In this document: in pieces, positions 9,275 to 36,077 of the stretch
Layout of the letters: each line of letters opens with the position of its first letter
Position numbering within the stretch: the first letter of the stretch is position 1
Assembly (NCBI RefSeq): GCF_033962415.1
Contig: NZ_JAVIKH010000002.1
Span: forward strand, 124,001 to 188,000
DNA: 64,000 nucleotides
Origin: Candidatus Cetobacterium colombiensis
GTDB taxonomy: Bacteria > Fusobacteriota > Fusobacteriia > Fusobacteriales > Fusobacteriaceae
Direction of reading: 5' to 3'
Notes under the pieces: generated by a model
Databases searched by the model: none
What the model was told of the DNA's origin: nothing
The model's input: only the letters and a program-made list of their open reading frames with translations
Position numbers and translations under genes: made by a program

Positions 9275-9287
9275 TTAAATAATACTA

Positions 9288-9364
9288 AACTACTAGGGGT
9301 GCCTTTTGGCTGAGATTTTACCCTTAGAACCTGATCTAGTTAATACTAGCGTAGGGAAGTAGTT
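9288..9364 (+). promoter_or_regulatory. TPP riboswitch aptamer (THI element)
   Basis: The conserved blocks are present in order: GGGGTGCC, GCTGAGA, ACCCTTAGAACCTGATC and GCGTAGGGAAG. The P1 stem is formed by AACTACT (9288-9294) and AGTAGTT (9358-9364). It binds thiamin pyrophosphate and should shut off the downstream tenA-transporter operon when TPP is abundant. Confidence 0.95.
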
Positions 9365-9397
9365 ATCTATCACTTTTATTTTTTAATTGTGCATATT

Positions 9398-20342: not shown

Positions 20343-20383
20343 CTAAAAGTCTCATTTCAACTATGTTAGCTTAAAATAAATCA

Positions 20384-20550
20384 ACGATAGCACAACACCA
20401 TTTTAGGTGACAGTTGTATAAATCTTCTTTATACACCCAGCTCAAATCTTTTTAGTAGCAAAGATGAACTTCGGCGAACTTTCCTTTTAACAAATCTCAC
20501 TGATCTACCAATCTCAACTTGTTTACTTATAAAATTCGCAACCTCTATCA
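20384..20550 (-). promoter_or_regulatory. Lysine riboswitch (L box)
   Basis: Read on the minus strand the conserved L-box blocks occur in order: GAGGTTGCG, AGTGAGA, AAAGG...GCCGAAG, GAGCTGGGTG, ACTGTCACC and GTTGTGCTATCG. P1 is GATAG (20549-20545) with CTATC (20390-20386). Lysine binding should stabilise P1, free the terminator and switch off lysC-asd-aminotransferase. Confidence 0.93.
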
Positions 20551-20568
20551 AAAATATTAATTTAAGGT

Positions 20569-29479: not shown

Positions 29480-29533
29480 TTAAATTGGACTTAAAATTAA
29501 AATACTACTTTTTTAAGATAATTTATAGTATAA

Positions 29534-29610
29534 GCTCTCCCCATAGCATCCATATTTAAGGTTAGGACGTAGAAACTTTTGGACCATATCTCCAAAATAT
29601 ATGAGTAAAC
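29534..29610 (-). promoter_or_regulatory. Purine riboswitch aptamer (guanine type, divergent)
   Basis: On the minus strand the aptamer reads ACTCATATA, then P2 arms TTTTGGA/TCCAAAA around loop GATATGG, then GTTTCTAC. P3 follows around CCTTAAA, then GCTATGGGGAG. These match the purine riboswitch core, including the L2 loop and the J2/3 UUUCUAC. The specificity base is C (CUAU), as in guanine binders. The base before it is G where A is usual, and P1 and P3 contain mismatches. Confidence 0.8.
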
Positions 29611-29749
29611 TTTTAGATTTATAATAACATATTTTTTAAGAAACTTCAATTATTCTTGTGAATTTTTTTCTTTTCTAAAAAAAAGATAAAGGAATTTTCA
29701 TTTTTTTTAGTAATCTATTTTTAATTTAATAATTTTAAGAGGTGATTAT

Positions 29750-33432: not shown

Positions 33433-33459
33433 AAAAAGGATCTTTAAGATCCTTTTTTT
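33431..33459. terminator. Bidirectional terminator aminotransferase / cstA
   Basis: AAAAAAAGGATCTT and AAGATCCTTTTTTT form a 14-bp perfect palindromic stem with a one-base centre. Confidence 0.8.
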
Positions 33460-34867
33460 AAATTCTAGCTTCATCTACTTCTTTATTAGATTTGCTAGCC
33501 TTAATTCCAATTACTATAATTGAGCTTATAAAAACTAATAATCCTAATATATAAATAAAAGTCATATTAGATACTCCAAGTCCTTCTGGAGCTGCTAAAA
33601 AATAACAGGCAATCATCCCTGACATAAATGCTGCAGGTACTCCTGCTACCCAATAATTTTTACCATTTTCAATAAAATAATATGTACAAGTCCACAATCC
33701 TAATGTTGCTAACAGCTGATTAGTTGAAGCTACATATCTCCAAAGAGTATTAAAACCAACTTGTGATAAAAATCCAGCTAATAAGAATAAAGGAATTGCA
33801 ACTAATAACCTGCTTTTTAATGAAGATTGATTATAATTTAATACTTCAGCAATAGTTACTCTAGCACTTCTAAATGCTGTATCACCAGTTGTTATAGGTA
33901 GAGCTATCAATCCAAATAAAGTAAATACTAATCCATACTTTCCTAAAAGTCCTGTTATCATTTTACTAACTGCAACCATTCCCCCACCACTTGCAGCTAG
34001 TCCTTCAACACCACTAAAAAATCCTAAAGATATCGCTGCCCATGTCAACGCTACAAATCCTTCTAAATACATAGCAGCCATAAAAGATTTTCTTCCATCT
34101 TTTTCACTCTTTAAACATCTCGCAACTAATACTGATTGAGTCGAATGAAATCCTGATATAGCTCCACAAGATATTACCACAAACATATAAGGAAAAATTG
34201 GTAAATTTTTAGGATGCAAATTTTTTAAAGTTATTTCTGGTATTTTAACTCCTTTTACTAACATCGCCCCAATTAATAAAAACATCATTAAAACTAAAGC
34301 TCCTCCAAATAGCGGATAAACTCTTCCTATGATTTTATCAATTGGCAACAGTGTTGCTATAACATAATAACTTACAATTAAAGTTAACCAAATTTCTTTA
34401 TTAACTCCTGTAAATGATTGTAATATTTCTGCAGGTCCAGTTATGAAAGCTACTCCTACTATCACTAGTAATACTATTAGAAAATATTTAGTAAATACCT
34501 TAGCTTTTTTGCCTAAATATTTTCCAATTAGTTCTTGCATGTTCTCTCCATTATTTCTTAAAGAAATCATACCTGTATAGTAATCATGAACGGCACCAGC
34601 AAATATAGTTCCAAATACAATCCATAAAAAAGATGAACTTCCCCACATTGCTCCTGCTACAGCTCCCGTTATAGGCCCTAATCCAGCTATATTTAAAAAT
34701 TGAACTAAGAAACTTTTAAACCAATTCATTTGAACAAAATCAACTCCATCAGCTTTTGAAAGTGCTGGTGTATCTCTTTCATCTATTTCGAAGTTTTTTT
34801 CTAAATATTTTCCATATGTGTAATATGCAACAACTAAAATTAAAATTCCTATAAAATAACTTTTCAT
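33458..34867 (-). CDS. cstA: Carbon starvation protein A (CstA) family transporter
   Basis: Multi-helix membrane protein of 469 residues with the CstA landmarks: YGKYLEKNF, DFVQMNWFKSFLVQFLNIAGLGPITGAVAG and TGDTAFRSARVTIAE. Family members import pyruvate and have been linked to peptide uptake. This is the shorter form, without the C-terminal extension of E. coli CstA. It starts 15 bases after ilvE, so it should be under the same leader control. Confidence 0.88.
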   Translation of the reverse strand: MKSYFIGILILVVAYYTYGKYLEKNFEIDERDTPALSKADGVDFVQMNWFKSFLVQFLNIAGLGPITGAVAGAMWGSSSFLWIVFGTIFAGAVHDYYTGMISLRNNGENMQELIGKYLGKKAKVFTKYFLIVLLVIVGVAFITGPAEILQSFTGVNKEIWLTLIVSYYVIATLLPIDKIIGRVYPLFGGALVLMMFLLIGAMLVKGVKIPEITLKNLHPKNLPIFPYMFVVISCGAISGFHSTQSVLVARCLKSEKDGRKSFMAAMYLEGFVALTWAAISLGFFSGVEGLAASGGGMVAVSKMITGLLGKYGLVFTLFGLIALPITTGDTAFRSARVTIAEVLNYNQSSLKSRLLVAIPLFLLAGFLSQVGFNTLWRYVASTNQLLATLGLWTCTYYFIENGKNYWVAGVPAAFMSGMIACYFLAAPEGLGVSNMTFIYILGLLVFISSIIVIGIKASKSNKEVDEARI

Positions 34868-34882
34868 AACTAAGCCTCCTTG

Positions 34883-35803
34883 TTATTCAATAATAGTTAA
34901 CCAATTTTTATATTTTTCATTCATTCCCTCTGCTATTTTAAAAAATTCATCTTGAATTTTTTTTGTAATTTCTCCTCTAGTTCCCTCTCCTACCTTTATA
35001 TTATCTACAGAACTAACCGGAGTTATTTCTGCTGCTGTTCCCGTTAAAAATATTTCATCTGCTAGATATAAAAATTCTCTTGGAAGTGTTTCATATTTTA
35101 CAGTAATTCCTAAATCTTTAGCTATGTTTACAACGACATCTCTTGTTATTCCAGCTAATGATGATGATGCCATAGGTGGAGTTAAAAGCTCTCCATTTTT
35201 TACTAAAAATATATTTTCTCCACTTCCTTCACTTATATTTCCTAAATAATCTAAAGCAATTCCCTCTTCAAATCCCATTTCTAAAGCTTCCATTTTTATA
35301 AGTTGAGAACTTAAATAATTACCTGAAGCTTTAGCTAATGCAGGAAGAGTGTTTGGAGCTGGTCTTCTCCAAGAAGAAACACAAACTTTTATTCCATTTT
35401 TTAGTCCTTCTTCACCTAAATACGCTCCCCATTCCCATGCAGCAATCATTGATTCTACTGGGTTACACAAAGGATTTACTCCTAATTGGTTGTATCCTCT
35501 AAAAATTAATGGTCTTATATATCCACTTTTTAAATCATTAACTTTTATAGTATCTACAATAGCCTTCATAAACTCATCTTTAGAATATGGAACTTCCATT
35601 CTATAGATTTTACATGAATCAAAGAGTCTATCAACATGCTCTTTTAGTCTAAATACTGCTGATTTTCCATTTCTTAACTTATACAATCTTATCCCCTCAA
35701 AACATCCAGATCCATAATGCAAAACATGTGAGAGTACATGAACTTTTGCCTCATCATGTTCTTTTAATTCACCATTAAACCAAATTTTTCCAGTATTAAT
35801 CAT
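34883..35803 (-). CDS. ilvE: Branched-chain amino acid aminotransferase
   Basis: Fold-type IV PLP enzyme that interconverts Leu, Ile and Val with their 2-oxo acids. The 306-residue protein shows [21 protein letters not shown], the RPLIFRGY segment, the catalytic lysine in [12 protein letters not shown] and the EGSGENIF and GITRD loops. ATG 35803 follows GGGAGGAG. About 145 bases upstream lies a Leu/Ile/Val-rich leader ORF and, between them, a terminator, suggesting attenuation by branched-chain amino acid supply. Confidence 0.92.
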
Positions 35804-35832: not shown

Positions 35833-35866
35833 AAAAAAGACTTGAATCTAAATAGACTCAAGCCTT
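35833..35866 (-). terminator. Attenuator terminator upstream of ilvE
   Basis: On the minus strand AAGGCTTGAGTC (35866-35855) pairs with GATTCAAGTCTT (35848-35837), with two G-U pairs, followed by six T residues. It lies before the ilvE ribosome site and after the leader ORF, so it must be bypassed for ilvE-cstA expression. Confidence 0.8.
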
Positions 35867-35882
35867 AAAATACTTTCACTTA

Positions 35883-35918
35883 GCTCAAGCCTTAAATTTG
35901 TACTAAAATAAGGCTTGA
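35883..35918 (-). promoter_or_regulatory. Competing stem in the ilvE leader (switch segments A and B)
   Basis: Segment A, TCAAGCCTT (35918-35910), can pair with segment B, AAGGCTTGA (35893-35885). It can equally pair with the identical 9-mer forming the 5' arm of the terminator (35866-35858). A:B pairing leaves the terminator free to form; A paired with the terminator arm would prevent it. Confidence 0.6.
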
Positions 35919-35946
35919 AATTTTTAGAAGAATACTCTCACTAAAT

Positions 35947-36015
35947 TCAAACCACTGAACTTAATATTATTATTATCAGAAGTATTAAAAAAAGAAATTT
36001 TAATTTAGTGTTCAT
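35947..36015 (-). CDS. Candidate ilv leader peptide (22 aa)
   Basis: A 22-codon ORF with an excellent ribosome site (AAAAGGAGGA, then AAAAT before ATG 36015). After MNTKLKF comes LFLILLIIIIL, then SSVV. In total 13 of 22 codons are Leu, Ile or Val, including four consecutive ATA Ile codons. It lies between a near-perfect promoter and the ilvE attenuator. Composition, position and the downstream gene all fit a translation-sensed leader peptide; AT-richness alone can also enrich Ile and Leu codons. Confidence 0.65.
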   Translation of the reverse strand: MNTKLKFLFLILLIIIILSSVV

Positions 36016-36048
36016 ATTTTTCCTCCTTTTGTTTTTTTATTAAGACAA

Positions 36049-36077
36049 ATAATAAACTATTTTTTATTGGATGTCAA
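36049..36077 (-). promoter_or_regulatory. Promoter of the ilvE-cstA leader
   Basis: TTGACA (36077-36072) and TATTAT (36054-36049) with a 17-base spacer on the minus strand, about 25 bases before the leader peptide ribosome site. Confidence 0.75.

Follow-up and report, generated by a model that had tools for sequence, protein, structure and literature searches.

A leader-peptide RNA switch ahead of ilvE-cstA in Cetobacterium and its probable role in halting transcription when isoleucine is plentiful

The gene pair ilvE-cstA of Ca. Cetobacterium colombiensis raises the question of how its transcription is controlled and which part the RNA made ahead of ilvE plays in this control. We analysed a stretch of 64,000 nucleotides (the window), in which ilvE (34883-35803, minus strand) encodes a branched-chain amino acid transaminase of 306 amino acids (TIGR01122, above cut-off), followed by the gene for a CstA-family transporter (33458-34867, minus strand; PF02554). 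The latter lies after ilvE in all Cetobacterium loci checked (eight genomes with ilvE). The original prediction, made from the sequence of this stretch, had read the region in front of ilvE as a ribosome-stalling attenuator. Conservation, paralogous copies and a match between leader codons and downstream genes bear out this general reading, but not the switch between the helices A:B and A:C that had been proposed with it. We consider it very probable that ilvE-cstA is controlled by ribosome-mediated transcription attenuation, with the charging of Ile-tRNA as the main signal sensed by the element; when isoleucine is plentiful, this RNA switch would most likely shut off transcription.

All features of the leader lie on the minus strand. 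The predicted promoter (36049-36077) is present with a -35 box TTGACA (36077-36072), a 17-nt spacer and a -10 box TATTAT (36054-36049), giving 11 of 12 matches, and homologous leaders carry an identical or similar TTGACA-N17-TATTAT arrangement. The AGGAGG ribosome-binding site was likewise located (36027-36022) and is kept in homologues. It precedes a leader ORF encoding MNTKLKFLFLILLIIIILSSVV (35947-36015, including the stop codon), in which 13 of the 22 codons specify Leu, Ile or Val and codons 14-17 are four consecutive ATA codons (35965-35976). While the count of branched-chain codons agrees with the prediction, the control codons are mainly Ile and do not represent all three amino acids equally. 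The window has 55 short ORFs preceded by a ribosome-binding site; none but the leader ORF contains at least nine Ile, Leu or Val within 12 residues, or four Ile in a row. The genome from which the window was taken contains ilvDBNC, and its branched-chain pathway makes Ile and Val; leuA was not evident in this genome, where the sole HMGL-like match was weak (76 bits). An Ile and Val pathway without an evident leuA fits the Ile-dominated leader.

Downstream of the control codons, the leader contains a series of segments that can pair with one another. Segment X, GGTTTGAA (35946-35953), spans the leader stop codon and has segment A, TTCAAGCCTTA (35909-35919), as its partner; between them lies a small hairpin, TTTAG...CTAAA (35923-35945), and homologues also have a hairpin at this place. 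The sequence originally assigned to A, TCAAGCCTT, falls inside 35919-35909, and the two AAGGCTTGA copies described downstream of it fall inside segment B, TAAGGCTTGAGC (35894-35883), and segment C, AAGGCTTGAGTCTA (35866-35853), respectively. B can pair alternatively with A or C, and C with B, forming an antiterminator, or with segment D (35837-35850), the 3' arm of an intrinsic terminator. This terminator was correctly foreseen just before ilvE, with the second copy as its 5' arm: its stem extends from 35866 to 35837 and its U run (35833-35838) ends at 35833. It is the single terminator found in the leader stretch, where shuffled sequences gave a mean of 0.0. The 217-nt leader folds with a z-score of -4.3, and none of 200 dinucleotide shuffles was equally stable. 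A further segment F at the 5' end of the ORF (36002-36012) is provisional and lacks conservation in the diverged leader of G052; according to computed pairing, it can pair with X and the region after the stop codon if the ORF is untranslated. The F:X pairing is found in Cetobacterium ilvE and ilvD leaders and is weak in G052 (-2.5 kcal/mol).

Conservation was analysed in 12 Cetobacterium genomes, eight of which contain ilvE. In all eight, the promoter, the ORF, the segments and the terminator are found in front of this gene. The proposed conservation of the ilvE leader holds for the ORF, the Ile codons, A:B and the terminator in 8/8 genomes, but not for A:C, which is mismatched in half of them. 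The frame and the Ile run are kept in the eight leaders, although the peptides vary (MNTKLKFLFLILLIIIILSSVV, MNTKFKINFLLILIIIISSMVWC, MNTKFKNRFLLILIIILSSMV, MNTKLKFGFLLALIIIILSSSV), with ATA/ATT changes in the Ile codons. All length differences between the ORFs amount to whole codons, and where the stop codon TGA has become TGG, the ORF is two codons longer. The diverged ilvE leader of G052, a member of genus g13, contains the segments in identical order.

Duplex energies calculated for 16 leaders revealed four consecutive overlapping helices, X:A, A:B, B:C and C:D, with X overlapping or adjoining the stop codon. In the 15 Cetobacterium leaders the energies range from -8 to -11 kcal/mol for X:A, -14 to -16 kcal/mol for A:B, -13 to -15 kcal/mol for B:C and -16 to -20 kcal/mol for C:D, and all four helices form in the G052 leader as well. 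Covariation was assessed in an alignment of 11 rows and in one of 17 rows, to which BASS, ilvA, ilvB and opp leaders were added; the pairing segments were cut by hand in a fixed register, and one bulged T was dropped in some D arms. Covariation was seen for C:D, with 24 two-sided changes, seven pairs showing such changes and a score reached in 0/500 shuffles on 17 rows (five pairs and again 0/500 on 11 rows). For X:A, pairing amounts to 91.5% in the 17 divergent rows, where six two-sided changes occur (3/500 shuffles), and the covariation of A:B was reached in 2/500 shuffles. B:C is paired to 98% on 11 rows and 95.3% on 17 rows; the pairing is nearly always kept, but its covariation is not significant against shuffles, as much of the variation is G-U. 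When the partners were shuffled in nine groups (excluding ilvB_G040 and ilvD_G003, and with B clipped in metN_G002 and gldA_G002), the combined p-values were about 1e-7 for X:A, 3e-8 for B:C and 0.006 for A:C, values which are overstated owing to shared ancestry. Both B:C and X:A represent a conserved, mutually exclusive helix predicted to act as an antiterminator.

To follow the effect of translation, we placed a ribosome either on a control codon or on the stop codon and folded the RNA that lies downstream of it, in transcripts ending before D. With the ribosome at codon 15 of the window's ilvE leader, 9.4 of 10 B:C pairs are expected; with the ribosome at the stop codon, the expected pairs are 0.1 for B:C and 7.2 for A:B. 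A similar contrast was computed for the ilvE leaders of G002, G003 and G052 and for the ilvD, bass_G003 and opp leaders. It was partial in metN, partial or weak in tyrS, and absent or weak in bass_G000 and ilvA_G042. In the ilvE leader of G001, a different pairing of A is in competition once the ribosome has reached the stop codon. Ribosome position, control codons versus stop, hence decides the computed fold in most members, not in all. Shuffling of the X region abolished the gain in B:C upon stalling (eight of nine members gave p between 0.003 and 0.04). Once the transcript is finished, C:D is favoured at equilibrium in nearly all members regardless of the ribosome, which implies that the switch must be kinetic and that antitermination would have to be decided before D is made, as it is in known attenuators. 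Without a ribosome, A:B forms in most Cetobacterium leaders, not in those of ilvB, tyrS or metN; for the former this indicates termination by default.

From the anatomy and the energies we infer the direction of control, stalling of the ribosome on uncharged tRNA-Ile and a kinetic trap in the form of B:C. Transcription would start near 36042 and a ribosome would begin to translate the ORF of 22 codons. With charged Ile-tRNA available, translation would proceed to the stop codon and the ribosome would cover X, so that A:B could form, C would remain free to pair with D and transcription would terminate at 35833. If charged Ile-tRNA is scarce, the ribosome would be expected to stall at codons 14-17 and leave X exposed; X:A could then form and release B, which would pair with C ahead of the synthesis of D, preventing the terminator and allowing transcription of ilvE-cstA. 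When the leader is not translated, A:B and C:D would form by default and transcription would stop. In this model X is the only element found that would allow the position of the ribosome to act on A.

Copies of the element also precede other genes. A first covariance model built from 12 leaders and a second from 30 were searched in 98 Fusobacteriota genomes and added further copies, which brings the total to about 41. A homologous element lies before ilvDBNC in seven of the eight Cetobacterium genomes with ilvE, including that of the window (L122), with peptides such as MNKFKNLINIIIIIICFWV. Other Cetobacterium copies precede the genes for a BASS-family transporter and an L-lactate-dehydrogenase-like protein (L191, L192, L193, L194). 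One of them is the third copy in the window's genome (G000 C7, L191:1455-1576, plus strand; leader MNTNKKSLILVVIILLILSSVV). Genus g8 has further copies in front of ilvA and ilvB, and genus g4 has one ahead of the gene for a peptide-binding protein of a peptide-transporter operon (opp). In genus g14, seven genomes carry the element upstream of tyrS (L205:4286-4391, minus strand, and L224-L229), where the leader mostly reads MKF.NNQTYYYYY before the stop. Three Cetobacterium genomes contain a copy in front of metN (L230, L232, L233), with a Met-rich leader, MTTYNLISKTTMMNMMMPMGVGTKN and variants, alternating hairpins and a terminator. An aromatic-rich leader of like layout, MSLRKVRAMFWFMYYFKTKVCI, lies before a dehydrogenase-like gene in G002 (L231) and is a single case. 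The metN and aromatic-leader copies were assigned by weak model scores (E about 1e-4) together with their anatomy. The leader codons match the genes behind them: Ile for ilvA, ilvB, ilvD and ilvE, Met for metN and five Tyr for tyrS. Several candidates were set aside. The weak R2 matches L234-L243 (E 2e-4 and above) resemble plain terminators at the ends of genes or similar structures; they lack a matching leader ORF and were left out of the count, and antisense R1 matches in ilvE leaders are due only to the repeated palindromic segments.

In the scheme of the original prediction, A would pair either with C as the antiterminator or with B, and neither X nor B:C would have a role. In the window itself A can indeed pair with both downstream copies, A:C reaching -15.4 kcal/mol, similar to A:B, and A:C is the strongest alternative in the ilvE leader of G001. 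However, conservation does not extend to the pairing with the second copy: A:C is mismatched in the ilvE leaders of G002, G003, G004 and G007, that is in half of them, and it is weak or absent in the ilvD, BASS, tyrS and G052 leaders (about -6.7 kcal/mol in ilvD and -3.2 kcal/mol in G052). It is paired to 79.5% on 11 rows and 75% on 17 rows, compared to 95-98% for B:C. Furthermore, that scheme overlooked X, which covers the stop codon at 35953-35946 and whose pairing with A is conserved. It also contains no coupling of A to the ribosome, which still stands about 30 nt upstream of A on reaching the stop codon. We therefore regard an A:C antiterminator as very unlikely.

Alternatively, the attenuator might work in the opposite direction or answer to another signal, for instance slow translation of a hydrophobic nascent peptide instead of uncharged tRNA-Ile. 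The leader peptide is strongly hydrophobic, ilvE-cstA could also serve catabolism, and G007 has ilvE and its leader although ilvC and ilvD were not found there. On the other hand, the tyrS and metN copies contain Tyr or Met codons and no hydrophobic stretch as such, like elements precede the biosynthetic ilvDBNC, ilvA and ilvB, and folding favours antitermination upon stalling, which makes this reading highly improbable. A riboswitch, T-box or protein-binding leader with an incidental short ORF seems even harder to sustain and is extremely improbable: the conserved loop of the A:B hairpin (CCTTATTTTAGTA-like), which the pairing scheme does not need, would speak for it, yet conservation includes the ORF with its reading frame and control codons, and the codons shift with the gene. 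T-box and known Rfam families were rejected as the identity of the element because the T-box covariance model (RF00230) had no match in the 12 genomes of the genus, including the window, and the leader matched no Rfam family at gathering score. A published T-box survey, with none in its Fusobacteria/Thermotogae row, is in line with the former result.

The preferred reading, a ribosome-mediated attenuator based on the chain X-A-B-C-D, resembles known systems in several respects. The his leader of Salmonella and E. coli contains alternately pairing segments A-F, one set of helices terminating and the other antiterminating, with termination as the default without translation. The element described here shares the chain of alternating segments and the two opposing sets and, as computed for most Cetobacterium leaders, the default termination, and by analogy it would work like a his-type chain; the comparison concerns the mode of action and not membership of a sequence family. 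It differs in its control codons, which are for Ile/Leu/Val, Met or Tyr and not for His, and in the place of X, the segment predicted to respond to the ribosome, at or next to the stop codon. In the enterobacterial ilvGMEDA, ilvB and leu attenuators, a leader peptide rich in branched-chain residues is followed by the helices 1:2, 2:3 and 3:4, and stalling prevents the intrinsic terminator. The branched-chain leader before ilv or leu genes and, in our model, the prevention of termination by stalling are common to both, whereas that helix chain is shorter; here, a stalled ribosome would expose X, and two antiterminating helices, X:A and B:C, would be involved.

The original description of this layout as known for ilv/leu operons of Proteobacteria applies to enterobacteria but is too narrow, as such attenuators are also reported or predicted outside, e.g. 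in S. aureus and Corynebacterium. The S. aureus ilvD attenuator has an Ile/Leu-rich leader peptide and a terminator without a T-box, as is the case here, but in its model the antiterminator pairs with the poly-U tail while the terminator stem stays intact (PMC5794164), and it belongs to another phylum. The Corynebacterium ilvBNC attenuator (PMC11857589, PMC10272879) shares the translated upstream ORF and alternative hairpins, and leader peptides before ilv genes have been reported or predicted in actinobacteria (PMC1262725), again in another phylum. No report of such attenuation for Fusobacteria or Cetobacterium was found in the open-access literature, in agreement with the earlier remark that it had not been described for this lineage. 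Ribosome-mediated attenuation is a known mechanism, while the literature searched seems to contain no description of a reusable Fusobacteriota version fitted to Ile, Met and Tyr genes. Of greater interest is this wider repertoire. With moderate confidence, we propose that in Fusobacteriaceae, where the genus tested seemingly lacks T-boxes, one five-segment chassis X-A-B-C-D has been placed in front of genes for biosynthesis, transport and tRNA synthetases, where it serves as an interchangeable sensor of amino acids, with specificity given only by the leader codons (Ile, Met, Tyr and perhaps aromatic).

If correct, this would add Fusobacteriota to the bacteria with translation-coupled attenuation and provide a mechanistic reading of the control of branched-chain, methionine and tyrosine genes in amino-acid-fermenting bacteria. 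The leader codons would serve as a built-in functional label for the downstream gene. On their basis, the sequences suggest that the Cetobacterium BASS transporter encoded beside the lactate-dehydrogenase-like gene may handle or take up keto or hydroxy acids of the branched-chain type. They likewise suggest a response to branched-chain shortage for the peptide-transporter operon of genus g4. A common chassis with swapped codons would also offer a natural test of how far the leader sequence alone sets specificity.

Some further observations were made. The loop of A:B in the window (35895-35908; TTATTTTAGTAC and variants) is conserved beyond the need of the pairing scheme and could possibly be a pause or binding signal. 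G007, a genome estimated to be 98% complete, keeps ilvE-cstA and an intact leader while ilvC and ilvD were not found, and ilvE may have another role there. Rfam riboswitches in the window comprise a purine (29524-29624, minus strand), a lysine (20380-20555, minus strand) and a TPP riboswitch (9285-9374, plus strand). Finally, several additional genera of Fusobacteriaceae have Ile/Leu/Val-rich leader ORFs with terminators (L092, L097, L144, L145, L147, L150-L154). The Ile-rich ORFs before ilvE in g14 (L092, L097) and before ilvD in several other genera (L144, L145, L147, L150-L154) are associated with other RNA folds and were kept outside the element's family; in L092, the segment AATAATATTAGTTG of the ORF shows full complementarity to the terminator arm.
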